IMG/VR virus record: IMGVR_UViG_3300021168_000050 | Location: 1-44,215 of that record | Source of the DNA: a virus | Reading direction: 5' to 3' (one strand) | Length of the DNA: 44,215 nucleotides | In this document: positions 15,960 to 34,834 of the stretch, piece after piece | Layout: each line of letters opens with the position of its first letter | Numbering within the stretch: position 1 is the first letter of the stretch | Notes under the pieces: generated by a model | Seen by the model: the letters and a program-made list of their open reading frames with translations, nothing else | Database searches by the model: none | What the model was told of the DNA's origin: nothing | Program-made: the position numbers and the translations under genes

Positions 15960-17194
15960 CCCAAGCCTTCACTTCAGATGCCGAGATCGTCGAAACCCTG
16001 CGCGCTATCGAGGCGGCTGGCGGCTCCCAGCGGGAGGCTTCCAGAGTTTTGGGGATCGACCGCGACACCGTGAAGAAACGCGCCATTATGGCAGAGACCC
16101 GCGGGCTCACTGTCGACACGAAAGTGCTAACCGAGCTCGACCGCTTGAAGATCGCCCTGTCCCAAGCCAACCGGGACATCAAGGGTCTGCAGAAGGAGGC
16201 GGATAGCGCAGAGCGGATCCGCTCCGAGATCTATCGCCTAGCCTCCAGGACGCCTGAGCCGCCGGCTTGGCTAAACCCGAAGACATCGCGCTTCGGACAC
16301 CGCGGCATGCCCTGCACAATCTGGTCCGACTGGCACTATGGCGAAGTCGTGCGCCCCGAGGAAGTCGGCGGCTGCAACACCTTCAACATGGACGTAGCCA
16401 AGCAACGGGTCGAGCGCCTAGTGGACACGACGATCGACCTATGTTTCAATCACATGGGCCGCGCTGAGACCAAGTATCCCGGCATCGTCGTGATGCTAGG
16501 AGGTGACATGCTGAGTGGAGATATTCATGAAGAACTCATGGCTACTAATGACCGCACTACTCAGCAATGTATTAATGATCTCACTGATATTCTGGCGGCT
16601 GGGCTCGAAAGAATGGCCGACACGTTTGGACGTGTATTTGTTCCTTCCGTTGTGGGTAATCACGGCCGTGCTTCTCGTAAGCCTCGTATGAAGGGCCGCG
16701 TTTACACCTCGCACGAGTGGAACATCTACTGCAATCTGGAGCGCCACTTCCGCAAGGATAAGCGGATCTCCTTCCTGATCCCTGGAGAGAGCGATGCCTA
16801 CTTCTCCGTCTATGGACACCGCTTCCTCCTCACCCATGGAGACAGTCTGGGTGTCAAGGGAGGTGATGGAATTATTGGTTCGCTCGGGCCAATTATGCGA
16901 GGCGCACTTAAGGTGGGCAAGTCGGAGGCTCAGATCGGGCGCGAGTTCGACACGGTGGTCATGGGTCACTGGCATCAAGCCCTGTGGCTGCCAGGGATTA
17001 TCGTCAACGGTGCTCTCAAGGGCTACGATGAATACGCCCGCCTCGCGATCAGAGCGCCCTATAGCCGCCCCTCCCAACAACTCTGGTTCGTCCACCCCGA
17101 GCACGGCATCACCGCCAAGTGGGAGATTTTCCTAGACGAGAAGTATGTCAGTACGGACACCAGCGTCACCCTCACCTGGGAGCAGCCCGCATAG
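15956..17194 (+). CDS. Metallophosphoesterase with N-terminal HTH and coiled coil
   Basis: The 412-residue protein starts with a helix-turn-helix (SQREASRVLGIDRDTVKKR, about 24-42), a coiled-coil stretch (about 58-95), then a calcineurin-like phosphoesterase with SDWHYGE (D125, H127), GGDML (D184), GNHGR (N235, H236), THGDS (H294) and GHWHQ (H338, H340). All metal ligands are present. Phage members of this type are often called DNA repair exonuclease-like, but their substrate is unknown; the HTH suggests action on DNA. Start ATG 15956 overlaps the resolvase stop. Codon use changes abruptly to T/A-ending codons at about 16495-16700 across the active-site region. Confidence 0.88.
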   Translation: MTQAFTSDAEIVETLRAIEAAGGSQREASRVLGIDRDTVKKRAIMAETRGLTVDTKVLTELDRLKIALSQANRDIKGLQKEADSAERIRSEIYRLASRTPEPPAWLNPKTSRFGHRGMPCTIWSDWHYGEVVRPEEVGGCNTFNMDVAKQRVERLVDTTIDLCFNHMGRAETKYPGIVVMLGGDMLSGDIHEELMATNDRTTQQCINDLTDILAAGLERMADTFGRVFVPSVVGNHGRASRKPRMKGRVYTSHEWNIYCNLERHFRKDKRISFLIPGESDAYFSVYGHRFLLTHGDSLGVKGGDGIIGSLGPIMRGALKVGKSEAQIGREFDTVVMGHWHQALWLPGIIVNGALKGYDEYARLAIRAPYSRPSQQLWFVHPEHGITAKWEIFLDEKYVSTDTSVTLTWEQPA

Positions 17195-17220
17195 CTGACC
17201 CGAAGCCTGGAGAACTTCCC

Positions 17221-17736
17221 ATGGATCTCGACCTTCATTCCCTCCTCAGCGAGGAAGACTGGGGCATAGCTGTGCGCTATATCGGCTCGCTCTATCGGCC
17301 GCCAGATCTTACGATCGCCCCAGACGGAGAGCCCTACATCTACCGCTGGTACGTGACGCCGCGGAGCAGCCAGGCCAACGTCTATTTCCACGTCCAGGTG
17401 AAGGACGATCCCGATCGCCCACTGCACGATCACCCGTGGGACAACATGAGCACTATCTTGGCCGGGGGTTATATCGAGCACATCCAGTCTCATCCGCCGC
17501 ACGGCGAGACGATCTTGCTCACCCGCCGGCCTGGAGACGTGGTCTTCCGCAGGGCTAAGGAGGCGCACCGGCTGTTCATGCCAGCTGGCGTTCCCTACAC
17601 CATGACCCAGTTCACCACCGGGCCCAAGATCCGCTCATGGGGCTTCTGGGACCTGAAGCGTGGCTGGCTTCATAACGAAGACACCGTCCATCTGGTCGAC
17701 GGCAAGTCGGTCTCACCGAAGGAGAACTTCTCATGA
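17221..17736 (+). CDS. Cupin-fold protein
   Basis: GGAG stands before ATG 17221. The 171-residue protein shows a cupin pattern frequent in phages: YIYRWYVTPR, HDHPWDNMSTILAGGY with H69, H71 and Y84/E86, then a GDVVFRRAKEAHRLFMPAG segment with H116, and a final RSWGFWD. The HxH...E...H set would bind one metal ion. The substrate is unknown; relatives are annotated only as cupin or hypothetical. Its end overlaps the next gene (ATGA), so the two are co-expressed. Confidence 0.75.
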   Translation: MDLDLHSLLSEEDWGIAVRYIGSLYRPPDLTIAPDGEPYIYRWYVTPRSSQANVYFHVQVKDDPDRPLHDHPWDNMSTILAGGYIEHIQSHPPHGETILLTRRPGDVVFRRAKEAHRLFMPAGVPYTMTQFTTGPKIRSWGFWDLKRGWLHNEDTVHLVDGKSVSPKENFS

Positions 17737-21176: not shown

Positions 21177-22259
21177 TCAGTTTCCGAATGTCCAGAACTG
21201 CCGCACTCCAGTGCCAGGCGGAGGCGGCTTAACCGCGGCAACCTGGAAGCTGATCTTGCCGAACGACATGGCCAAGGTGCCGAGTTCATTGGGGGGCGCA
21301 TCGTGGGCCGTGACGGTCATGGTCAAGGCACCGAACTTCATGGACACGCTGGCAGTCTTGTCGTTCCCAGAGGCGCTCAACGTCAGAGCTCCGAAGGTCA
21401 TGGCTACAGTGCCGTTCTCTCCCGCACTCGGGTTGTTGAAGGTCTGCGTCTGCAGAGACGACCATGTCGTAGGCGTGACAGAATAAGCGATCGACCAGCA
21501 TAGGCCATCATCTGAATAGATCACGTTGCCAGCGGTCGGGGTCTTCGAGGGGTTCGAGTTCTCTGCCGTTATAGCGACCTGCGCTACGGCCGAAGAAGAC
21601 GGCAGGGCATACAGGATATAGTTCGGAAGCCTATTGATCGAGGTTGCCCATACCGTGCTGTTGCTGCCGTCGAAGGCGTGAGAGGCGACGTTCGTCCCAT
21701 CATCAAAGCCATCGCTCGCAGTCCCGCCTACGTCCAGGCTGCTGCCTCCGATCGTAGCTCGATGCTGTAGCTCGTTGATGGAATAGGCTGAAGGAACCGC
21801 CGTTGGGGCGAAACCCCAATTAATATGGGATCCTCCAGGCGTCGTCCCCTGAGTGAACACGATAGTTTGGCCAAGCGTCCACCCAGTCTTGTGCATATAG
21901 CAGCGGTCAGTCCAAGTCGAATTGTCGTCGCTGAACTGGAGACAGAAGACGTCCGGCGTCTGGTTCTGGCTATTGTCCGTCCTAGCTTGCCACACAACCT
22001 CGACTATATCCTTGGTCACTCCAGCGCCAAAGTCATACTCTACCCATTCTAGCCCGTTGCCGCCCGATGCCCACTGACCCGTATTTGCGAATAGATTGGT
22101 CACACTGAACCCACCGAACGTAGAGCTCGCCGTCGCGGTGCCGCCGGTCGCCACGTTGGGGCCGCCGGCCACTGCCCTGAACTGGCACTGCTGGCCAGCG
22201 TGAACACCACCGCCGTCATTCAAGGCTATGAGGATCCTCCAATAGCGGTGAGCAGTCAT
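21177..22259 (-). CDS. Tail adhesin with discoidin-like domains and three C-terminal repeats
   Basis: The 360-residue protein has two beta-sandwich segments that resemble discoidin (F5/8 type C) domains: about 1-125 (WRILIALNDGG, ATGGTATASSTF, WVEYDFGAG, PDVFCLQFSDDNSTW) and about 150-270 (AFDGSNSTVWATS, PNYILYALPSSS, VIYSDDGLCW). The C-terminus holds three copies of a ~20-residue repeat around VAMTFGALTLSA, VSMKFGALTMTV and LAMSFGKISFQV. Discoidin folds bind carbohydrates or lipids, so this is a good candidate for receptor recognition (inference). It starts with an ATGA overlap with the preceding gene. Confidence 0.65.
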   Translation of the reverse strand: MTAHRYWRILIALNDGGGVHAGQQCQFRAVAGGPNVATGGTATASSTFGGFSVTNLFANTGQWASGGNGLEWVEYDFGAGVTKDIVEVVWQARTDNSQNQTPDVFCLQFSDDNSTWTDRCYMHKTGWTLGQTIVFTQGTTPGGSHINWGFAPTAVPSAYSINELQHRATIGGSSLDVGGTASDGFDDGTNVASHAFDGSNSTVWATSINRLPNYILYALPSSSAVAQVAITAENSNPSKTPTAGNVIYSDDGLCWSIAYSVTPTTWSSLQTQTFNNPSAGENGTVAMTFGALTLSASGNDKTASVSMKFGALTMTVTAHDAPPNELGTLAMSFGKISFQVAAVKPPPPGTGVRQFWTFGN

Positions 22260-22771
22260 TGCTTCCTCCCGGTCACGGTTCCGGATACGTCGGCCAAGGT
22301 AGTGTCAGCCGGGTTCGGGGAGTAGAGGGTCATGGTCTGCCCGGCCGGCAGGACGAAGCTGCCACCGACCCAAGCTACGACTGCCGTCTTGGATCCAGGG
22401 GCGAAGGTGATGGTCCCCACGAGCGTGTTGAAGGCTCCGCTCACGATGTTGAAGACCGCGCTCGCCGTAGCCGGGATCAGGCAGGTCACGATGTTCCCCG
22501 GGTCGCCATTCGAGAACGTGACCTGGCGGCTGAACACGGCCGTGCCTAGCTTCTCGTTCGAAGCGTAGAGGCCCTCGTCGAAGAAGCCGAAGCCGGCTGA
22601 GCTAGTGAGTTTCGAGACGTCAACGGCCGCGGCGATGCCCATACCACGGAGGGCGTTGAGGCTCAGAAGCTGCACCTCTCCGTCGCCACCCGCTGCACGG
22701 CCGAGGATATAGCCCTGTGGCATCGAGGCGCGGATCCCTCGTAGTCGTATAGCAGGGATGTTCTTGGTCAT
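22256..22771 (-). CDS. Tail-associated structural protein, unknown role (171 aa)
   Basis: The 171-residue protein is beta-rich with a glycine- and alanine-rich core (about 40-130) and a C-terminal TMTLYSPNPADTTLADVSGT, looking like a small adsorption or baseplate-type protein. It overlaps the start of the adhesin gene and the end of the large internal protein gene (ATGA both times), so it is part of the tail/adsorption block. No family recognised. Confidence 0.55.
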   Translation of the reverse strand: MTKNIPAIRLRGIRASMPQGYILGRAAGGDGEVQLLSLNALRGMGIAAAVDVSKLTSSAGFGFFDEGLYASNEKLGTAVFSRQVTFSNGDPGNIVTCLIPATASAVFNIVSGAFNTLVGTITFAPGSKTAVVAWVGGSFVLPAGQTMTLYSPNPADTTLADVSGTVTGRKQ

Positions 22772-25700
22772 TGGATGCCCGCCTGCTTGGCAAGATCATT
22801 GGCGCGCTCAGCCATCACCTGCATCGTCGCATAGTGCTGATCTAGAAGCTGACGCTTATCGTTCGGAGACGCATAGGCCGCGTTCGGATTATCGGAGTTC
22901 GCGCGGCCAGGGAGGGAGTTGATGTACTTCACCATCTTCTGCTCGTTCTGGACCGCCTTCGCCGCCTCTAGCCACTGGAACGTGGTCTGCGGGATCGATT
23001 TGGCCGCGGATCCATAGGCGTTGGCATAGTCCTCCAGGTTCGAAGGTAGCGCCGTGTCCTTGGGCATGGTCAATTTCTTCGCGCCAGCGATCCCCGGGTT
23101 CTCGGCGATGATCTGCTGAAACCTCTGGAAGTCATTCTCCTTCAGCGCCAGGGAAAGGCGGTCATGCACCTCACTGAACTTCTGGAATTGATCATCGAAA
23201 TCCCGGATCGGCTGCGCGCTGGCGTTGGGATAGCGAGCCAGGAACGAGGAGAGGAGTGGAGTATCCTCCAGGTGCGGGGCTGGCAGGTTCTGGCGACCGG
23301 CTCCAGAGGCCTGGAGCGCCATGTCCACGACGTGCGTTGCCGCGGTGCCGAGCGTGCCTGACCAGCTATCGATATAGTTGTCGATCACAGGCGGGCTCAA
23401 GCCAGCGCTCTTTAGCAGCGGCAGATCGTTCACGAAGCGCGACAGGGCCTTCGCCGTGCTGGTGCTATATGGAGTGTACTTCTCTTGAGTGGGGAGAGCA
23501 TGACCCACACTATCTGGTACCAGAGGCCGCTCCTTGAAGTACGAGTAGTTCGCCGCGTGCTCGAGGAACGGCAGGAAGGCCGACGGATACATCCCGCCCG
23601 GTGGCAGAAGGCTAGGAGCGATGCTCTTGTGAAAGCCTTCCCAAGCCGATGGGTTGTCCTCCATGAACTGGCTGACGAGCCGGCGCGGGATCGCTCCGAA
23701 GATCAAGGACAGCAGGGGCGGGTACTTGTAGACGAGCGTGGTGCCGTGGGCGACCATGACCGGATTGCCGACTTCGTCCTTTGCACCGGTGGCCTCCCAG
23801 TCGTCGCCCATATGGAAGACGAAGGCGTTGTCCTTCACGTAGTCCGGGACCGCCTTGTACCACTCCTTGTCCTTGTTCTGGAGCTCATTCAAGACGATCG
23901 GGATCGTGATGACAGCCGCTGCCTTGGCCCACGTCTGCGTCATCAGTTTGGGGTCCCAGCCAGGCTCGCCCTCGCCGGGGCGAGAGAAGCCCGCCAAGGC
24001 CCTCGCCGTTTTCTCCATGCCATTCAAGTAGGCCGTGAAGAAAGGGACGCCTGAGTTAATAGCCTTGGCCTGAGGTCCCATCGCACCTGAGCGGTGGAAC
24101 GGGGCCTCGCTCGCCGCGTATGCCAGAGCCTCTTGGCTCTCACCCGCCTTAAGACCCTGGGCGAAGCGGCCGACGGGCATGACCTGCGCCATCTTCATGG
24201 ACCACCACTTCATAGCGTCGTAGGGCGTCTTGATCAGATTGAACGTCCCCTCCATGAACGCAGGGTCCTGGTCGCCCTTCATCACGTCCTTGAGGTAGCC
24301 GCTTTTGCTCAGTCCGTCAAAGATCCGGTCAGGCGCACCCTGGCGCATCCACTGGTCCCAGACTTTGCTCTCGCCGAAGGTATGGCCTATGCCCGTGATC
24401 GCCTGAGCGATCGTATTCCGGAAACCGGGCTTGGTGATGAACTGAAACGGGATGTCATAGCCGAGGATATGGAGCGGGAATGCCGGGTTCAGGACGATCA
24501 TGGACCGCTGGAAGTTCGCGACTGCTCCGACCATCTTCTGCCACATGCCTTGCTGAACGGAGTTCATACCGCGCAGAAGCGGCGCGAGGTCTGGATCCGA
24601 GAAGACGACCTTCTGCATCTGACCATTGCGAAGCACTGGTACCTCATCTTCCTTCAGAGCCTTTCCCGTCAGCTGGGCTACGGTAGCATCCATATCCGGG
24701 TCAAGCTTGCTCTCGAGGTCTTCTACGTTCAGCGGCAGATGCACCGCGCCCTCGCCTTCAACCCGGGCCAAGCCAAGGGGGAGGGCTGCGTCGGCGGCGG
24801 CTTGATTGAGGAGGTTATGGTTCGCTAGGGAGATCCGGAGGAACGTGTCCTTGATCAGGCTCTCGTGGACGTTCTGGACTTGAAGGTCCGAACCCTCGAA
24901 GGTGCGGATCGGGTTCCGAGGATTTGTACCGCCTCCGACCTTGCCACCCTCCCGCGGATGGAGCTCCTCGATCACACGGTAGCCCGGGATGCGGGCCTTG
25001 TTCGCTTCGATCGCCGCGTCGTGCGCGGCCTCGCTCAGGACACCGGCATCGCGAAGGTAGGTCAGGGTCTTGTTCTGGAAGTCGACCAGTTGGTTGAAGG
25101 CGTCGCCATACTTGGCGTGGCCGTTCTGGATGACCTTTAGGGCGCTGTCGAGCGGGATCCCCGTCTCCTTGCCCTGTTCAGCCTTCTCAGCTGCCCACCT
25201 AGCCCCAGCGTACGTCCAGAAGGTGTTCGCCCCGGTCTCGCCCTCGAAGGGCTCCAGGATGGTCCTGAGCCCCGGGCCGATGACATTTCCCTTGGTATCG
25301 AGCATCCCCTTCTCCAGCATGTACTGGGAGGTGTTGTCCGACGCCTCGGCTGCGCGCTGGAGAAACAGAGGGTTCCGCGCATCCTCCAGGCTTCCACCTT
25401 CTCGCGCCGCGTCGACCAGGCGGCCTAGCGGGTGGTCTGGGTTCATCATCTCGAGGTACAGGTCATGGCTACCCTTCGCCAGGAGCTCACTGAAGCTGGG
25501 CGGCTTAGTCACCCCAGCGAAGTGGGAGGCGACTTCCTCTTCCGGAGTGAGCTCGCCCTCTGGGTTCTGCTCCGTCTTCGTCGCCTCACGCTGCTTTCCA
25601 AGAGCGCCACTCTCATCTTGGGCGAAGTCTGAAGCGACCTTGCGGATCTCGTCGAGGAGGTTCGACCCCAGAGCCTGGGCGTCGGCTTCTGATGGGGGCT

Positions 25701-27222
25701 CGCCCATGTTCATGTCCTGCATCATCTGGCGGCCGGCACCGATGTTCAGAGCGCCCGGCTCATTGGGGCTCCCGATGCGGCGCAGCCAAGTCGGCAGAAA
25801 CTGTCCATACTTCCCCGGGTTGCTCTCAGCGAGGGACCGGTAATGTTCCTCGCGCAGGGCTTGGAACGCCTGTGGGTCATTGCCGCTCTTCTCCAGCATC
25901 TCCTTGGCCTTGGCGACACCCTCGTTGATCGCAGCATCGAAGACTGGCAGCTTCATGTTGTCGGGCAGACCATCGATCTTCATCGGCACCCAGTAGTCGC
26001 TATGATAGATGTTCAGGGCATCGGTCTGAGAGATGTTCTTCACATCGAGGCCGGGGTGCGCATTCGAACTGATACCATACTTAGTGACGCCACCGGTGTC
26101 AGAGGTGAGACCACCCTCTTGCTTCAGCATCCATGCACCAGCAGCCTCGAAGTTGCCGGGGATCTTAGGAAGGACATAGCCCGTGCTCTTGACCTGGGTC
26201 GAGGCTGGCGTGGTTATGCGCGGCGGCGCATCGCTCGGGATCGAGAATGCCTGGCGCGCCGGCATGTCATTCATGGTGCGCGTTGCCGCGTCCGTCGGGC
26301 TCTCTCCGGTGTGAACCCAGTTCTGAGCTAGGTTCTCCTTTGCAGCCGCAAGGACGGGGGCTGTCGCGGAAGTGAGCTTCGCTGCCCCGTGAGCCGTCGC
26401 CATCAAAATCGCGCTGTCGATTAGATCCTCTTTCGACATCAGCTTCCCGTTGATCGCCATCGTGCCAGCAGTCAAGGCCGCCATCTCAGCGCCGCTCTGA
26501 AGGATAGTACGCTGAGCGACGCCATAGCCTGCCACCTCTGCACCGACCCCCACGTACTTGCCAGTGCCACCAGTGAGGGCTCCAACCGTTCCCATCTGGG
26601 CGGTATGCCACAACACTTGGCCATAGCGAACGGCGAAATCCTCAGTTGATCGATATTGGCCGTTGCGGATCTCATCCGCATGCTGCTGCTTGATGTACTC
26701 AGGGAGCGCCATCGCGCCAGCCCCAGTCGCTGCAGCGCTAGTGAAGACCGCACCAGGGCCAGTCTCAGAGCCGCCGACCGCGCCCACGACCGCACCGGCT
26801 GTACCGCCAGCCAGGCCAGCGGGAAGGTCGCCAACGCCACCTCCCAGCCCATAGGCAAGCTTGCCCCAGAAGCCCGTTCCCTGAGCCATCGTCTTGGCGT
26901 TATCAGATTGGCCGGTCAGGACGCCGCCAGAGCTCGCCTTCATGCCGGCTATGAAGAGTTCCCACGGGTTCGTGGTCGACTGGGCCTGCGGTGGGTTCGC
27001 CTGATAGGTCGCCTTGGCATTCGCTGCCATCTGCGCGTTCGATGTATCCTGGGCTTTGTAGCCGAGCCGGCTAGCAATCTCAGCATCGCTGAAGCCCTGG
27101 TCGCTAGCCTTCTGCCAGCGCTGGGCAATCGCGTCGTGGATCTCCTGCTGACTGAACCCGTTTGACCTGGCTGTCGCTATACCCTGTTCGAGTGGGGTCA
27201 GAGCCGGGGGTGGGTTCGCCAT
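22768..27222 (-). CDS. Giant internal virion protein with embedded GH108-type muramidase
   Basis: A 1484-residue protein in the position of T7 gp16, the largest ejected core protein. Residues about 360-480 carry a GH108-like lysozyme domain (WMLKQEGGLTSDTGGVTKYG, catalytic Glu at about 369, and YHSDYWVPMKIDGLP), which would make a hole in peptidoglycan during DNA entry. Around 110-170 lies a Gly/Ala-rich hydrophobic region, and the C-terminal third contains the segment FFTAYLNGMEKTARALAGF seen in LPD38-type large phage proteins. ATG 27222 with GGAGG six bases upstream is preferred over GTG 27225. Coupled (TGATG) to the gene before it. Confidence 0.85.
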   Translation of the reverse strand: MANPPPALTPLEQGIATARSNGFSQQEIHDAIAQRWQKASDQGFSDAEIASRLGYKAQDTSNAQMAANAKATYQANPPQAQSTTNPWELFIAGMKASSGGVLTGQSDNAKTMAQGTGFWGKLAYGLGGGVGDLPAGLAGGTAGAVVGAVGGSETGPGAVFTSAAATGAGAMALPEYIKQQHADEIRNGQYRSTEDFAVRYGQVLWHTAQMGTVGALTGGTGKYVGVGAEVAGYGVAQRTILQSGAEMAALTAGTMAINGKLMSKEDLIDSAILMATAHGAAKLTSATAPVLAAAKENLAQNWVHTGESPTDAATRTMNDMPARQAFSIPSDAPPRITTPASTQVKSTGYVLPKIPGNFEAAGAWMLKQEGGLTSDTGGVTKYGISSNAHPGLDVKNISQTDALNIYHSDYWVPMKIDGLPDNMKLPVFDAAINEGVAKAKEMLEKSGNDPQAFQALREEHYRSLAESNPGKYGQFLPTWLRRIGSPNEPGALNIGAGRQMMQDMNMGEPPSEADAQALGSNLLDEIRKVASDFAQDESGALGKQREATKTEQNPEGELTPEEEVASHFAGVTKPPSFSELLAKGSHDLYLEMMNPDHPLGRLVDAAREGGSLEDARNPLFLQRAAEASDNTSQYMLEKGMLDTKGNVIGPGLRTILEPFEGETGANTFWTYAGARWAAEKAEQGKETGIPLDSALKVIQNGHAKYGDAFNQLVDFQNKTLTYLRDAGVLSEAAHDAAIEANKARIPGYRVIEELHPREGGKVGGGTNPRNPIRTFEGSDLQVQNVHESLIKDTFLRISLANHNLLNQAAADAALPLGLARVEGEGAVHLPLNVEDLESKLDPDMDATVAQLTGKALKEDEVPVLRNGQMQKVVFSDPDLAPLLRGMNSVQQGMWQKMVGAVANFQRSMIVLNPAFPLHILGYDIPFQFITKPGFRNTIAQAITGIGHTFGESKVWDQWMRQGAPDRIFDGLSKSGYLKDVMKGDQDPAFMEGTFNLIKTPYDAMKWWSMKMAQVMPVGRFAQGLKAGESQEALAYAASEAPFHRSGAMGPQAKAINSGVPFFTAYLNGMEKTARALAGFSRPGEGEPGWDPKLMTQTWAKAAAVITIPIVLNELQNKDKEWYKAVPDYVKDNAFVFHMGDDWEATGAKDEVGNPVMVAHGTTLVYKYPPLLSLIFGAIPRRLVSQFMEDNPSAWEGFHKSIAPSLLPPGGMYPSAFLPFLEHAANYSYFKERPLVPDSVGHALPTQEKYTPYSTSTAKALSRFVNDLPLLKSAGLSPPVIDNYIDSWSGTLGTAATHVVDMALQASGAGRQNLPAPHLEDTPLLSSFLARYPNASAQPIRDFDDQFQKFSEVHDRLSLALKENDFQRFQQIIAENPGIAGAKKLTMPKDTALPSNLEDYANAYGSAAKSIPQTTFQWLEAAKAVQNEQKMVKYINSLPGRANSDNPNAAYASPNDKRQLLDQHYATMQVMAERANDLAKQAGIQ

Positions 27223-28919
27223 CACTTACCTCCAAATAGGATCCCGTCGAGTTTCGCCTGGCGGTCGGCGGGCATGGTTGCCAGCGGTGCGGGGGCAGAC
27301 GACCCCGTGGGCGGCAGAGGATGAGACGTATCTATCTTGGTTCGGACCTCTGCGCCACCTGAGGTCGCTGCGCGAACGTTATCCCACGCTGCAGTGACAG
27401 CGTCAAGCAGACTACCACCAGCACCCTGCGGTTTCTGCAGAGGAGGCGCATGCTGGGAGCCCGGTGCATTATCCGGGTTGAAGCTCTCGATCTTTCGGTG
27501 GAAGTAGATCGAGTTCGGGTGCTGTTGATCAGGAGGACCGAGAGTGTCGGCCCTGGAGATACCCGCGGCGTCATTGGCGCGGATCAGCGGGGCATAGTAG
27601 TTGAAGGCATCCGAGAAGGCCTCCTTGCCCTTGGCATCGGGCATGCCGGTCATCTTAGCCGAGGGCGAGGCAGTGGAGGTGCGCCAGAAGTCTACCTCTG
27701 CGTCGAGGAGCTTCGTATCAAGCTGGCTCTCCGGGTTCTTCGGATGCAGCTGCTCCAGGAGAAAGCGTGACCCTTCCATCGATAGGCCGTTGGCGACACC
27801 CACCTTGCCTAGGATCTCCGCATCGGTCGGGGCTTGAGCGGTCCCGATCCGGCCGAGGAACGAATGCAGCGTCGCTGGGTCGTCCTTGCCCGCGGCGTTG
27901 GGGTTCTCGGTCTTCTGCTTGAAGAGGCGCTCTGCCAAGCCAGTGAGAGCTTCGCGCGTGGGAGGGAGGAGGTCCGGATCCGTGAGGATCGCCTGGTTGG
28001 CCTTAGACGTGAAGTTCGGATCGCTGACGTCTTGGGTTCCGAAGGCAGTCATATAGGCTCCCGCCTTCTGCTCTGACTTCAGTTTGGCCGCCAACTGCGA
28101 GGCTTCCATCTGGCGGATCTGATCGCGCTCCTTGGCGTTCGTAACCTGATCGGCGAACTTGTCCAGAGCTTCGCGCTGCTGGTCGTCCAGATAATTCGCG
28201 AAGGGACCACCGGCCTTGAACGCCGCCTTGGCCTGCTCTGGGTTGGCCTGCGCCATCCCCTGACCCTGGGAGATCGTAATCTGGGCCATGGCTTCATTGA
28301 CGTGCGTGCGCGCTGCAGCGATCTGGTCAGCGGTCATTCCGGGGTGGGCAGCGATAGCCGCCTCTACGGTTGCCCTATAGGTGCCGCGAACTAGATCCGC
28401 TGAAGTCGGATCGCTGAAGGCAGCGAAGGCAGAGTTGTTCCTGGCGACCTGAAGGTTGCTGACGAAGTCGGCCCCCTCGACGTTGGCTTGTGTTGCCATC
28501 GCCTTCTCGCCGAAATAGGAGCGCAGCTGGTTAGCGTGCTCCATGGCGAACATCTTGCCGCCCTTGGTCTGCGCAGCGTCCTGGTACTGCTGGAGGGCCG
28601 GCTCGACGACCTCGCTGATGAAGTGCTGCGCCGCGGCCGGATTGTTCGCTGAAGCTGGGTCCGTGAAGAGGGCCTGCATCTTCGTGTCGAGGGCATTATG
28701 CAGCTGAGCGCCAGTCGCGCCAAGCTGGCTGATCTCCTGGAACGTCTGGTGTCCCTCGATCGCGTTCCCGACCTGCTTCAGGCCGCCGCCCACGTCAGAC
28801 GCGATCTGGTGATAGAAGGCACCGACACGGCGGCCCTCCATCTCGAATGCCTGAGCGCCGCCCTCCTGGGGACGTAGCGTGTCTTGCTGGCTAGTGTACT
28901 GGACGATATTGCCGGCCAT
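27222..28919 (-). CDS. Internal virion core protein (gp15-like position)
   Basis: The 565-residue protein is almost entirely helical and rich in Ala, Gln and Glu, with long amphipathic stretches (about 40-330) and a disordered Pro/Gly-rich C-terminus. It lies between the gp14-like and gp16-like genes, where T7-like phages encode the second ejected core protein. It has no enzymatic motif. Assignment is by position, size and composition. Its stop overlaps the next start; an AGGAG-type site lies upstream of ATG 28919. Confidence 0.7.
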   Translation of the reverse strand: MAGNIVQYTSQQDTLRPQEGGAQAFEMEGRRVGAFYHQIASDVGGGLKQVGNAIEGHQTFQEISQLGATGAQLHNALDTKMQALFTDPASANNPAAAQHFISEVVEPALQQYQDAAQTKGGKMFAMEHANQLRSYFGEKAMATQANVEGADFVSNLQVARNNSAFAAFSDPTSADLVRGTYRATVEAAIAAHPGMTADQIAAARTHVNEAMAQITISQGQGMAQANPEQAKAAFKAGGPFANYLDDQQREALDKFADQVTNAKERDQIRQMEASQLAAKLKSEQKAGAYMTAFGTQDVSDPNFTSKANQAILTDPDLLPPTREALTGLAERLFKQKTENPNAAGKDDPATLHSFLGRIGTAQAPTDAEILGKVGVANGLSMEGSRFLLEQLHPKNPESQLDTKLLDAEVDFWRTSTASPSAKMTGMPDAKGKEAFSDAFNYYAPLIRANDAAGISRADTLGPPDQQHPNSIYFHRKIESFNPDNAPGSQHAPPLQKPQGAGGSLLDAVTAAWDNVRAATSGGAEVRTKIDTSHPLPPTGSSAPAPLATMPADRQAKLDGILFGGK

Positions 28920-29377: not shown

Positions 29378-32300
29378 CTAGCGGTCCTGCGTATGATGGA
29401 AGGCCCCGAACGCCAGGACGTTGGCGGGATAGGGGCGAGTGATTGACCAGCATAGCATATCGTCGAAGGAATAGTCACTGTCCAGCGTGTCCCAATAGAC
29501 GCCGCTGAATAGTTGGTTCTTCGTCAGAGGCGTGCCGCCCTTGGTCTTGAAGTTGGCCGCGTGGTTGCTGGTAAAGTTCGTACCGAAGCTGATCCCCTGC
29601 GTATTGTGTAGAAGGGCCGAGAACATATGGCTGCGCCGCGTCATGCCCAGAGCGGGGCCAGTCTGAGCGCCGGCCTCCTGCGGGTTGATCGTCCTCAGGA
29701 TCTGGCCCTGGCTCGTGTAGGTGAACCCAGCCACTAGAGGGGTTTGGTCGGTCGTCTCAGAGGACGCTGGGCCTATGTCCGCCTGGATGCGCATTAGCTG
29801 ATAGGTCCCGCTCGTCGTTCCGCCGACAGGCGTGGGGGCACCGCCTCCAGACGTGTACTGGAAGTACCCTACCAGGAAGCCCGTAACGTCATCGCTGAAG
29901 AAACCGCCTGCCGCTTGTAGACCATGGACGTTCGTCGTCGAGATGACCGTGCCCAGCTTCGTGTTGATCACGATCAGGCTCATGTCAGAACCACCGTTAT
30001 TCACGATGATGTTCATGCGTTGGCGCTGGATCCGAGTGTCAGGAGAGAAGGCCAAGGTAGATTGGTTCGGCATCTTCCAGACGATAGAGCCATCTGTCGG
30101 GTTCACCTTCACGAAATACGAGGGCGTAGTGACCGCGTCCAGTGTGCTATACTGGACGATCACACACCCATCGGTCTCATCGTATACGATATCCTTTCCG
30201 CTCACTCCATCAAAGTGCGTCCAGGTGGGATCGATGTCCGCAGCATGGAACGTCACGAACTCAGTGATGCGCATTCCCTGCGGAGGCAGAGCTTTCCAGT
30301 TGACCGGATGTGTGTCGGGCTGATGGTTCGTGTTAGCTGCAGTGAGCGAAGAATACCAAACTCCGCTGAACTGGACTACGTCACCAACGCCATAGGTGTG
30401 GGCGCTATCGTAATAGTTCGTTGCAGCCAGAAGAGCCTTGTCATCCCACACCGCTATCTTGCAGATACCAGACGGATCTGTCGTGGGAGAGCCGTTCCCG
30501 GGTGAGCTTACTGCAAAGGCGGTGATGATCTGGGCATTCTGGATCCCAACGCACATGCCGCCATTCCGATACAGCGGAGCCGTCGGGATAATCCCGTAGG
30601 CCAGGATGGGGATCCCGGTCGCGAAATTCAGCACATTCCCAGCAATAGCCGAGGCTTGATTGATGTAAAAGCAGTAGGCGTTCCCAGCACCCTTGGCCGC
30701 GACCGCCACTAGAGGGAAGCTAAAGCCGCTGTTGCGGGCATCTCCACCAATAGTTCCCGGAAGCGCAGCCTCTGCTAGAGTATCGGCGTTCAGGATATTC
30801 CAGATCGGGTTGTTCAGAAGCTGCGTCGCATACCAGATATAGTCTCCACCATAAAACATGCCGCTGGCTGTATCGCCGCCTACTGTCGATAGGAGGACTT
30901 CGTTGATCTGCGCATTGCCTGCGATCTCAAACGAAGCCAGGTAGCCACCACCGTTAAGGAAGATGCGGCCCCCAGCCCAGTCTGGCCGGCTGGCCCAGCC
31001 AAAGGTCGGCTTAACGCCTAGACTGGGATTATAGGCCTGGATAGTCGTCGGGTTCGGGGCGATGTCTCCAGTCGTCACGATGAACTCCACGCCCGTCTGC
31101 AAAGGCGCAAAGCTAACTCCCGAAGCGTTTAGGGCATCCAGGTAGGCCTTCGTGAACAGCTTGTCCGGATCACTCTGATAGGGGACATGGATCTTGCCGC
31201 CTGCCTGTACGACATAGTCGCCGAGATCGAGGCCGCCAGCGAAGACTGAGACCGTCTTCCCGATCAGGGGCCAATAGCCGTAGATGTCGAGCCCAGTTCC
31301 GTCCACAGACTGCTGGGCGTAGAACGGGACGATGCCGGCATCCACAAACCAGGCCGCCGTGTTGGGCTTGTTCTCATCGAAGATGTCGGTCAGCATCTCC
31401 ACGAACCGGACGTTGGTCGAGATGTCGTTCGTGACCATCATGAGGCTGTCGATATCGCCACCGATCGAGGGTCCGACCTGGATGCTCTCGACAATACGCC
31501 CAGAGCCCAAGGAGTGCCGGTGCCAGCCAGAGAAGGACGCAGGCTGCGTCCCGAAGGGGCTTTCGCGTTTGTAGGTACATCCGATTAGGCTCCCATCATT
31601 GCAACGCTCCCAGAGAACGGGGGTGAGCTCCCGTTGATACGCGATCTCAGCCACCCCGGGGATAGACAGATGCTTCGCCTTGAGCGAGAGGTTTGTCCCA
31701 CTGAACTTGCCGCTATAGACGTCGGCGATGTACTCGTACGTCTTCCGACCGTAGCGCTGGACGAAGGCGATCGAGAGCCCAGTCTGCCGCGGCTCGATGT
31801 TCGCGCAGCCATACTTCGTGACCCTGTGCGCCTGAATGGAGGTAGGCGTCACGGGGTCGCTCAGATTGCTGGCCTGGATCAACCATTCGCCGGCCTTGGT
31901 CCCAACGACGACGCCAACGGCCGTTGGGATCGCCCAATAGATCTGCTCGATGTTGTCGGAGTTCAGGGTCTCCGTAATCCCATTGTTGTCAGCGACGGTG
32001 CCATCCTGGCCAGTCGGATCAAAGCGCAGGAGCTCATTCGACTTGGTGGCGTCAAACCGGTTCCCAATCGCCCCCATCAGATAAAAGCGGCCCTCATAGT
32101 AGGTGCCCGAGGTGGGGTAGCCAGAGTTCGCGCTGAAAGCCCCTAGCCGCCAGGTTGTGATTGGGGTCGTGTAGAGCAGGTTCCCGTCGGCGCGCGGGTT
32201 GCCCTCGAGGTCGACGGAGGCCGGCTGGATAGCCATCGTCACCTGGTTCACGCTCGCTACCGTAACGATGAAGCCCCACGTCCAGACCGCGGCCGTCGTC

Positions 32301-33328
32301 GAGACCGCCCACTTGGTCAGGTCAGTATCCGGCTGCACGTTCGTGTTCGCGACGATCGCAGTATAGTAGGCCCCATCGAATTTGACAGACTGGTTGGCCG
32401 CGTAGGGCGTCCCACTCGACCAGACCTGAGGCTCGCTGAAGAGGCGGATCATCCGGCCGACGTCCGACGAATTGAAACCAGCGCCGCCGTTAATTGAAGT
32501 CGTCGCCGAGAAGCTGACCGTAATCGTTCCCGTCAAGCCGCTGGGAGTGGCCGTAGAGCCGTCCGTCGGTGGGTCGAGGTAGGGACCATCGGAGAAGACC
32601 GCCTGGGCGAAGGTGAAGTTCGCAAAGACGTTCGAGACTGTGAAAGATGACGTCAGGAGATACACGGGGAAACCCGGGACCAGGATTAGCGCGAACGCGT
32701 CATTCTGGACGATCCTGGCCTGGGCCCATTGGCCGTTCGTGTAGGGGGTCGTGAAGGTTGTAACGCGACTGACGATCAGGGTATTGAGGCCAAGGGTGAT
32801 AGTGCTCCCATCTACCCCTGCGCCCGTCACGGGATCGGCAATCGTGAAGTGGAAGGCGTCCACGACCGTAATCGCCAACTGGCGGTTCAGCAGCGGGGTC
32901 ATCCCAAGGAATACGACGCCACCGACAGGGAGGCCGAACTGGACTTGGTCGCCGGTCGACCATCCATGCGCCTGCGCCGTCTCGACCAGAGCCGGGTTCG
33001 CTGAGTTGATGCCGAGCACGACTGGTGGATTTGGGTCCAGGACCAGGCTTAGGCCGGCGAAGAACCGAATATGACCGTCAGTGAACTCTATCTGGTATGG
33101 TGCCTCTACCGAGAAGTCGAACAAGCGCAGCTGAGCCTTGGCCCCGTTGCGGGTCGTGGCGGCGAAGGCCGTCCCCGGCCGGCGCACTGCGGAGCCTTCC
33201 TCGATCGGGATCGTGTTCAGGCAGACGTTCATGCCCGAGCGGTAGAGCGGGTCGTCCATCCGGCCTTGATAGTAGGGAGAGAATTCGCCTCCGAGAAACG
33301 AAGTCTGAAGCGCTGAAGCGTCGGGCAT
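29378..33328 (-). CDS. Tail tubular protein B-like nozzle protein with carbohydrate-binding-like inserts
   Basis: The 1316-residue protein starts with the signature of T7 gp12-type nozzle proteins: SFLGGEFSPYYQGRMDDPLY, GMNVCLNTIPIEEGSAVRRP, FDFSVEAPYQIEFTDGHIRF. T7 gp12 has about 790 residues, so this one is much enlarged. Two inserts resemble CBM5/12-type carbohydrate-binding modules: about 303-343 (SGTPYAANQSVKFDGAYYTA ... QPDTDLTKW) and about 972-1013 (SAHTYGVGDVVQFSGVWYSS ... QPDTHPVNW). It forms the tail tip through which DNA passes. GGAGG six bases before ATG 33328. Confidence 0.88.
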   Translation of the reverse strand: MPDASALQTSFLGGEFSPYYQGRMDDPLYRSGMNVCLNTIPIEEGSAVRRPGTAFAATTRNGAKAQLRLFDFSVEAPYQIEFTDGHIRFFAGLSLVLDPNPPVVLGINSANPALVETAQAHGWSTGDQVQFGLPVGGVVFLGMTPLLNRQLAITVVDAFHFTIADPVTGAGVDGSTITLGLNTLIVSRVTTFTTPYTNGQWAQARIVQNDAFALILVPGFPVYLLTSSFTVSNVFANFTFAQAVFSDGPYLDPPTDGSTATPSGLTGTITVSFSATTSINGGAGFNSSDVGRMIRLFSEPQVWSSGTPYAANQSVKFDGAYYTAIVANTNVQPDTDLTKWAVSTTAAVWTWGFIVTVASVNQVTMAIQPASVDLEGNPRADGNLLYTTPITTWRLGAFSANSGYPTSGTYYEGRFYLMGAIGNRFDATKSNELLRFDPTGQDGTVADNNGITETLNSDNIEQIYWAIPTAVGVVVGTKAGEWLIQASNLSDPVTPTSIQAHRVTKYGCANIEPRQTGLSIAFVQRYGRKTYEYIADVYSGKFSGTNLSLKAKHLSIPGVAEIAYQRELTPVLWERCNDGSLIGCTYKRESPFGTQPASFSGWHRHSLGSGRIVESIQVGPSIGGDIDSLMMVTNDISTNVRFVEMLTDIFDENKPNTAAWFVDAGIVPFYAQQSVDGTGLDIYGYWPLIGKTVSVFAGGLDLGDYVVQAGGKIHVPYQSDPDKLFTKAYLDALNASGVSFAPLQTGVEFIVTTGDIAPNPTTIQAYNPSLGVKPTFGWASRPDWAGGRIFLNGGGYLASFEIAGNAQINEVLLSTVGGDTASGMFYGGDYIWYATQLLNNPIWNILNADTLAEAALPGTIGGDARNSGFSFPLVAVAAKGAGNAYCFYINQASAIAGNVLNFATGIPILAYGIIPTAPLYRNGGMCVGIQNAQIITAFAVSSPGNGSPTTDPSGICKIAVWDDKALLAATNYYDSAHTYGVGDVVQFSGVWYSSLTAANTNHQPDTHPVNWKALPPQGMRITEFVTFHAADIDPTWTHFDGVSGKDIVYDETDGCVIVQYSTLDAVTTPSYFVKVNPTDGSIVWKMPNQSTLAFSPDTRIQRQRMNIIVNNGGSDMSLIVINTKLGTVISTTNVHGLQAAGGFFSDDVTGFLVGYFQYTSGGGAPTPVGGTTSGTYQLMRIQADIGPASSETTDQTPLVAGFTYTSQGQILRTINPQEAGAQTGPALGMTRRSHMFSALLHNTQGISFGTNFTSNHAANFKTKGGTPLTKNQLFSGVYWDTLDSDYSFDDMLCWSITRPYPANVLAFGAFHHTQDR

Positions 33329-33331
33329 TGC

Positions 33332-34834
33332 CTACCTCCGACAAGTGATGTAGTCGTCCTCGGGCGCTTCGGTCGGGCCCTGCTCAATACCATTGACCAT
33401 GCGAGCCTCTGTCATGAACCGATTATAAGCCGAGACGATAGCACTAAGCTTCGTGGTCGACTGCGTCAAGGTCTCGCAGACCTCAGTCGCTATCCGGCAA
33501 GCCATGCCCTCGCAGAACATCGGGTCCATGAGGGTCACATCCGCTACGTCGGCGACGAAACGCAGGGTGATCGGATAGACCTCGCGAGTGACGATCAGCC
33601 CATTCTCATAGACCCAATCGTCATAGGTCAGGCCAGAGGGTGCTCCGAGGTAGCTCGTGCTCCCAGCCTTAGGATCCTGAGGGGCTTCGCGCAGGAAGCC
33701 ATAGGGCAGCACGTAGACGTTCCGAGTGGCGCTCTGGGTCACAGGGCCCGAACCGGCCGGATAGACCAGTTGAAGGCTCCGCACGGTCGCGTTACCTAGC
33801 TTCAGCCAGTTGATGCCCATCATGAGATCGGGCTGCGTATTCGGCTGGAGACCCCATGGGGCCAAGCCATTGTCGGTCCAGTTGACCCCGGCATTACCCA
33901 CCGGGTTATGGCCGACGTTCCCCGCACCGGTGGAGGTGTAGAGGTGATTGTCTGAGCCGATGACCTGAGCAGCGTTCCCATACGTGGTGCCTACGAGCCA
34001 GAGCGCGACTGGTGTTGAATTGACATTCAGGTCGATCTGGCTCTGATAGACAACGGAGTTGAAGAGGACCGTTTGGCCAACGCTGTAGATCCCGGTGTTC
34101 ACCCATGCGGGGACAGTCGTCGGGACATCAGAGTTGCCAGTGTTCAAACTCAGGTAGACGGACGGGTTCGGTCCCGTAGGATAGTAGACAAGCTCGCCAG
34201 CAAAGTAGCCACCATTCGTGGCAATCTGGCCCTGCTTCGTCCAGTGGACACCGCCATCCGTGACCGGGTTGTTGTTCACGTTCCCGTTCGTCACCGAACT
34301 ATATTCGAACTCGTCGGAGCCGATCGCTAGCTGGCCCGCGGCATAGGTCGTGCTCGGCGACCAGGGCTGCGGGCTCGACTGGTCCGCATTGAACGTCCAC
34401 TGAGTGACAGTCCGTGGTCCGAAATACTGTGTCCAGAAGCTCTCCTGGTCAGAGCCCTGGGTGTTCAGATCAGGCTGCTGGTTCGCTGGCACCGAGCGCA
34501 GAGCCTGATACCATTCTCCATTGAACTGAACGACGGATCCAGTGACGTAGGTCGCCGTCGAGGAATAGATAGCCGGTGTGAAGAGCATGGTTGGGCCGCT
34601 ACCGCTGCCGCCCACCGGTGGAGGAAGGTTGTTGGTGTTCACCGGCCGGATCACTGCGCGCCGGGTCGCGAACGTCCAGACGTTGCGGCGAAGCTCCGCG
34701 TCACGAACCTTGTCATAGACGAAGGCCGTCTCGCTGGCATTCTTACTGTCATCGGTGAACGAGGCGATGCGGGTTGCTCCGCAGCGCTGCAGGGCGCGGT
34801 TCGCGATATCGACGGGGGTCTGAAACTTGGCCAT
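33332..34834 (-). CDS. Tail tubular protein A-like adaptor with inserted CBM5/12-like repeats
   Basis: The N-terminus (DIANRALQRCGATRIASFTD ... RNVWTFATRRAVIRP, 1-64) and the C-terminus (LPYGFLREAPQDPK ... CETLTQSTTKLSAIVSAYNR) match T7 gp11-type adaptors, which join the portal to the nozzle and are about 200 residues. Here about 260 residues are inserted, made of four to five repeats of the kind Y-x3-x-V-x-F-x-G-x-W/Y-Y ... N-x2-P ... W (about 90-135, 158-199, 245-280 and 282-320), resembling CBM5/12 carbohydrate-binding modules. They would project around the tail. GGAGG lies ten bases before the ATG. Confidence 0.82.
   Translation of the reverse strand: MAKFQTPVDIANRALQRCGATRIASFTDDSKNASETAFVYDKVRDAELRRNVWTFATRRAVIRPVNTNNLPPPVGGSGSGPTMLFTPAIYSSTATYVTGSVVQFNGEWYQALRSVPANQQPDLNTQGSDQESFWTQYFGPRTVTQWTFNADQSSPQPWSPSTTYAAGQLAIGSDEFEYSSVTNGNVNNNPVTDGGVHWTKQGQIATNGGYFAGELVYYPTGPNPSVYLSLNTGNSDVPTTVPAWVNTGIYSVGQTVLFNSVVYQSQIDLNVNSTPVALWLVGTTYGNAAQVIGSDNHLYTSTGAGNVGHNPVGNAGVNWTDNGLAPWGLQPNTQPDLMMGINWLKLGNATVRSLQLVYPAGSGPVTQSATRNVYVLPYGFLREAPQDPKAGSTSYLGAPSGLTYDDWVYENGLIVTREVYPITLRFVADVADVTLMDPMFCEGMACRIATEVCETLTQSTTKLSAIVSAYNRFMTEARMVNGIEQGPTEAPEDDYITCRR

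Follow-up and report, generated by a model that had tools for sequence, protein, structure and literature searches.

In T7, the fibre dock of the tail adaptor is a small beta-barrel, and that of the nozzle is found on the outer surface, after the propeller end and before the C-terminal platform (PMC6702177). In SU10, the fibre-dock loops project radially (PMC9509320). Decorated tail proteins are already known. In siphophages of Gram-positive bacteria, CBM decorations of lactococcal 936 phage tail proteins bind hosts (PMC6669499) and evolved Dits restore adsorption to EPS+ hosts (PMC10688798). Small anchoring modules have been described at the N-terminus of the Milano gp124 tailspike (8fqc) and the 7-7-1 long tail fibre (9rkv), where they fix the spike or fibre to the baseplate; the Milano module is inserted between the wedge proteins of the baseplate and makes contact through proline-rich motifs at 55-60 and 100-115 (PMC10811340, PMC12796354). 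In CBM5 domains, chitin is bound by a conserved pair of aromatic residues together with a third one, and a Tyr and a Trp are part of the hydrophobic core (PMC8449059).

Here, a 44,215-base virus record from IMG/VR (the window) was analysed, from which a tail adaptor and a tail nozzle carrying CBM5/12-like repeats were read. Their core folds are shared with T7 gp11/gp12 and Carin-1 (8ck1), but the adaptors of Carin-1 and BcepC6B-type phages (190-227 aa) lack the module array. As in the lactococcal phages, carbohydrate-module-like domains are found in structural tail proteins; there, binding was proven by experiment, whereas the window phage is a podophage whose modules have a predicted CBM5/12 fold and lack the canonical binding residues. 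The modules resemble the Milano and 7-7-1 ones in being small beads at a presumed tail-attachment site, but are carried by the fibre-receiving adaptor and nozzle and not by the spike or fibre. CBM5/12-bead arrays in a podophage adaptor and nozzle appear to be new: the literature search gave no paper describing CBMs in the tail tubular proteins of podophages, and none of the annotated phage records in the searched collection had the array.

Identification of the adaptor and nozzle genes

The two genes are adjoining minus-strand ORFs (Table 1), with the nozzle starting 4 bases after the adaptor; coordinates and strand had been given correctly in an initial annotation of this DNA. In family searches, the adaptor matched the tail protein family phrog_394 (E = 2.7e-36) and the nozzle matched phrog_376 (E = 5.6e-99). 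The closest solved relatives in a PDB profile search were the Carin-1 connector (8ck1_E) and nozzle (8ck1_A). The latter was matched at E = 3e-43 by profile and at E = 2.8e-29 by Foldseek, which also matched T7 gp12, using an AlphaFold2 nozzle model built without the last 121 residues. In the adaptor model (mean pLDDT 82.8), the core paired with the LME-1, Carin-1, KP32 and T7 gp11 adaptors. Core sequence, helix-bundle fold and the adjoining nozzle gene identify a gp11-type adaptor, and the phrog_376 core sequence and fold a gp12-type nozzle. A T7/Carin-1-type tail for the window phage is supported by these models, which are monomers. Within the family, the N-terminal adaptor core has a mean pairwise identity of 51%.

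Two further database entries resembled the adaptor. A0A6J5LNM8 (uncultured Caudovirales, 'ChiA1_BD domain containing', 492 aa), a database model only, matched the adaptor model over its full length in Foldseek. In PDB 9wwa chain I ('adaptor protein', 440 aa), residues 55-113 were collinear with adaptor profile positions 66-120, a weak match (E about 1). A search for prophage relatives in bacterial genomes gave no match, and no cultured member of the family was found.

Table 1. Features of the tail genes and neighbouring candidates; coordinates refer to the window, except in the last three rows, which refer to the records of relatives.
Feature	Coordinates	Strand	Residues or size	Evidence or occurrence
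Tail adaptor (tail tubular protein A, gp11-type), with module array	33332-34834	minus	500 aa	phrog_394, 8ck1_E, AlphaFold2/Foldseek
Adaptor N-terminal core, helices 1-2	34631-34834	minus	1-68	aligned with insert-free 190-227 aa adaptors
Adaptor module 1	34460-34570	minus	89-125	in 31/31 relatives
Adaptor module 2	34241-34369	minus	156-198	in 4/31 relatives
Adaptor module 3, 'YFAGELVY', degenerate	34103-34207	minus	210-244	in 29/31 relatives
Adaptor module 4	34007-34111	minus	242-276	in 29/31 relatives
Adaptor module 5	33878-34006	minus	277-319	in 14/31 relatives
Adaptor C-terminal core, MDPMFCEG motif, helices 3-5	33335-33808	minus	343-500	alignment
Tail nozzle (tail tubular protein B, gp12-type)	29378-33328	minus	1316 aa	phrog_376, 8ck1_A, Foldseek
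Nozzle module 1	32309-32425 (site 32300-32425)	minus	302-340	module profile, alignment
Nozzle insert	29744-31183	minus	716-1195 (480 residues)	absent from insert-free nozzles; alignment
Nozzle module 2, within insert	30296-30412	minus	973-1011	module profile
Nozzle C-terminal core, probable platform domain	29381-29743	minus	1196-1316	found in all outgroup nozzles
Fibre-like protein	22256-22771	minus	171 aa	related to 587-aa fibre-like ORF in L060
Virion/tail protein with two F5/8-type-C (galactose-binding-like) domains	21177-22259	minus	360 aa	
Split nozzle ORFs, L006	7651-9882 and 9878-12322			
Split nozzle ORFs, L024	8141-10390 and 10333-12747			
Split nozzle ORFs, L031	8619-10847 and 10724-13186			

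Detection of the modules

A profile was grown from the window repeats, that is, from the same proteins in which modules were later counted, and was used with an E limit of 0.1. It detected modules of about 40 residues belonging to one family with a CBM5/12 scaffold, five in the adaptor, where four to five had been annotated, and two in the nozzle, as annotated. Adaptor module 3 was the weakest of the five (about 19 bits). Every intact adaptor relative was found to carry modules, and about 240 were present among relatives. Each of 66 distinct adaptors had 1-7 detected modules, mostly 3-6: one module in a single case (a split gene), two in one, three in 19, four in 28, five in nine, six in seven and seven in one. 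Nozzles of the family had one to six.

Pfam CBM_5_12 matched the adaptor (1.4e-4, 22.3 bits) and the nozzle (7e-4, 20 bits), each over two stretches and under the curated cut-off; single window modules scored 17.2-19.5 bits against PF02839 and did not reach its cut-off of 26.2 bits. These low single scores would suit a chance likeness, with low-complexity Thr/Ser/Asn-rich sequence mistaken for a domain. That explanation has next to no probability in view of the number of modules in relatives, the high-confidence predicted fold and the independent PDB matches, and it was ruled out by the controls: reversed and shuffled proteins gave four matches to the profile, all at E >= 0.24 and none under the limit. 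Individually, 44 of 50 diverse modules matched PF02839 at E <= 0.1 (best 1e-9). In a PDB profile search with the 50 modules, the chitin-binding domain of chitinase A1 came top (E = 1.2e-6), followed by the phage 7-7-1 tail fibre, chitin deacetylases, chitinases C and B, and Milano gp124. Profile, controls, Pfam and PDB matches agree that the adaptor and nozzle repeats share one CBM5/12-type family, as initially annotated.

Insertion sites in the tail-tube proteins

Insert-free adaptors of 190-227 aa occur in BcepC6B, HTVC010P, HTVC035P, CP2, vir555 and a Manatee Spring phage. Aligned with these, adaptors of the window family have 103-319 residues inserted between helices 2 and 3, where the array breaks the 'PAWG...YxLPxDFLR' segment. 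The array is thus a true insertion, since the outgroup adaptors lack it. Similarly, the large nozzle insert follows the propeller end of the main body and precedes the ~120 conserved residues at the C-terminus. A C-terminal extension of the nozzle was rejected, because the last 120 aa are core in the outgroup alignment. The insert-free outgroups of both proteins bear out the annotated placement of the repeats within core tail-tube proteins and show an extra domain within a conserved structural tail protein, as in known phage decorations.

Nozzle module 1 is located between the 'DVGR' and 'WxW' segments, and its Y309, P333 and W340 are invariant in 31 nozzles. At this site, the BcepC6B and Carin-1 (8ck1_A) nozzles have a related 'GD..Y.A...P.HT.G..W' element, and in the alignment the Pelagibacter and Manatee Spring phage nozzles have none. 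The site is therefore considered an old insertion hotspot, which by alignment holds related or diverged elements in distant podophages.

Several relatives encode the nozzle in two ORFs that overlap within the 716-1195 insert; the conserved 120-aa C-terminus belongs to the second (Table 1). These could be true two-chain nozzles or frameshifts; in L031, the adaptor is split as well. The nozzle of another relative (L030, 8270-11851) contains a further long stretch of 'TSPDGxTWT' repeats, BNR/propeller-like, inserted ahead of the CBM-like module.

By domain order, the adaptor array site corresponds to the fibre-dock region of T7-type adaptors, and the nozzle insert holding module 2 to the T7 nozzle fibre dock. 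From domain order and the monomer models, and not from an assembled tail, we infer that the adaptor array and the nozzle insert sit at the fibre docks and are exposed outwards. The surface exposure on which the initial proposal of a sugar-binding tail depended is consistent with this, as the sites are external in T7-type tails.

Conservation and selection

Modules at the same position in different phages were 36-49% identical, versus 29% between positions within one phage. Recent tandem duplication was rejected, as same-position modules of other phages are more alike than neighbours. Adaptor modules 1, 3 and 4 and nozzle module 1 are near-universal with invariant residues; adaptor modules 2 and 5 are variable. 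The dN/dS values of the modules (0.05-0.37) indicate purifying selection, being slightly higher in the insert than in the core in most close pairs, and no diversifying selection at the modules was seen by dN/dS. Such positional orthology under purifying selection is as expected of fixed structural roles.

These data bear on a generic decoration, in which small beta-beads, inserted where external loops tolerate them much like the Ig-like domains on phage proteins, would protect or stiffen the tail or make weak nonspecific contact, with no specific partner. An insertion hotspot common to unrelated or diverged elements and the coming and going of adaptor modules 2 and 5 fit this explanation, as do the Ig-like-domain proteins of Vibrio phages VP2 and JSF9, which align with some 140 columns of the adaptor model, about the length of the adaptor core (database models only). 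The four fixed modules with their invariant residues exceed what a generic decoration needs, and we hold it to be improbable.

Fold and sugar-binding residues

The adaptor modules were modelled as small beta-domains (pLDDT about 80-93). In Foldseek, they matched the chitin-binding domain of chitinase C (2d49) with TMt 0.74 and rmsd 2.2, and that of ChiB with rmsd 1.7. Structure prediction of the inserts, recommended in the initial annotation, thus gave a chitin-binding-domain fold. Scaffold and predicted fold are those of CBM5/CBM12 (PF02839; ChiA1 1ed7, ChiC 2d49, ChiB 1e15), which also supply the best PDB profile matches; these are domains of secreted enzymes, whereas the window modules form arrays in virion tube proteins.

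A residue census was carried out on 147 non-redundant phage modules. The scaffold columns W/Y, Y, Y/W, P and W are kept in about 98-100% (Y 146/147, P 145/147, last W 128/130), V in 91% and G in 81%. In contrast, the exposed-Trp column of CBM12, which we take to be the key binding Trp of ChiA1, is aromatic in 2% of the modules, and the columns matching the CBM5 aromatic pair in 0-4%. The same loss is seen directly in the alignment with ChiB, where 'KWG-Y' faces 'kaavn' in the phage modules. The window modules likewise have neither the exposed Trp of CBM12 nor the Y/W-W pair of CBM5.

Judged by these columns, the CBM5/12 scaffold is kept and the known sugar-binding face is lost, so that the chief argument for sugar binding falls away. 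The annotated sugar-binding role of the inserts was therefore not supported in its canonical form, the binding aromatics being missing in essentially all modules; noncanonical binding via another face of the fold is possible.

Other adhesion and docking candidates

A 171-aa protein with the motif 'MPQGYILGR..GGDGEVQLL' is related to the 587-aa ORF of L060 and is a probable short tail fibre; it may be a dock partner of the modules. In relatives, 400-600-aa ORFs lie at the same place. The 360-aa protein with two F5/8-type-C domains is, by its domain content, a better sugar-binding candidate than the modules and a strong candidate adhesin; among 12 records tested, such domains were found in only one relative. 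Both genes come after the internal virion genes. A 1485-aa internal virion protein (22768-27225), which contains a glycosyl hydrolase 108 and an LPD38 domain, is probably a gp16-like, lysozyme-active ejection protein. The window also encodes a cysteine dioxygenase-like protein (phrog_4786, 17119-17736), an unusual metabolic gene for a podophage.

The 12 long records of the group that were screened (39.6-46.9 kb; IMG/VR records, which may be incomplete) yielded no T7-type fibre anchor. In these records, modules were detected in the adaptor and nozzle ORFs, save for one marginal match (13.7 bits, window 21948-22037) within the F5/8C ORF. It follows that the docked protein would be of another kind, or that the modules themselves are the contact surface. 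A phage without any fibre is less tenable given the 171-aa protein and the 400-600-aa ORFs of relatives. The initial suggestion that sugar binding would extend beyond the fibres calls for caution: the T7-type anchor was not found, but fibre-like and F5/8C proteins are present.

Discussion

The reading we favour, giving it about an even chance, is that the CBM5/12-fold beads form a docking or structural collar and not a multivalent sugar-binding one. Because the sugar-gripping residues are missing, a docking or structural role is the likelier of the two. Milano gp124 and the 7-7-1 fibre match the module profile, in sequence and fold, within their N-terminal anchoring module; such phage anchor analogues, together with the near-universal modules, their positional identity and purifying selection, fit a docking or structural role best. 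As counterpoints, the variation in bead number per adaptor would suit display or adsorption equally, and insert dN/dS slightly exceeds that of the core in most close pairs.

In the docking model, an uncultivated T7-like podophage family would have fitted its tail tube with an external collar of CBM5/12-fold beads. The adaptor beads, two to seven per adaptor and five here, would occupy the fibre-dock region, and the nozzle beads would lie one at the old hotspot and one at the fibre-dock position, giving about 72 beads per virion if T7 stoichiometry is assumed (12 adaptors, 6 nozzles). As protein-protein docking and structural elements, they would extend the fibre dock, secure the small fibre-like or F5/8C proteins and strengthen the joint of adaptor and nozzle.

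Alternatively, the collar could bind host capsule, exopolysaccharide or peptidoglycan weakly and many-fold, through a face other than that used by chitinases. CBM5/12 homology, the array form with its variable number and presumed external position, the missing T7-type anchor with modules almost confined to adaptor and nozzle, and the host binding by decorated lactococcal tail proteins and evolved Dits all speak for such a collar. We nevertheless regard it as rather unlikely: the canonical aromatics are missing in almost all modules, those phage modules whose position is known serve as baseplate anchors, selection is purifying with no sign of diversification, and the F5/8C protein and fibre-like ORFs already supply adhesion candidates. 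More doubtful still is a collar of some 70 beads that replaces or supplements fibre recognition, binding glycan via the unused face in an avidity-based adsorption by the tail tube. The 'distinct adsorption strategy' of the initial annotation is thus possible, and is put no higher because the binding aromatics are absent and the solved phage modules anchor to baseplates.

For podophages, the arrays indicate how the presumed fibre-dock regions of their most conserved tail proteins can expand into series of chitinase-type domains. Labelling a phage protein CBM5/12 is not enough, on its own, to assign it a sugar-binding function. Should the beads bind glycan after all, the family would have an adsorption mode borne by the tube and not by the fibres.
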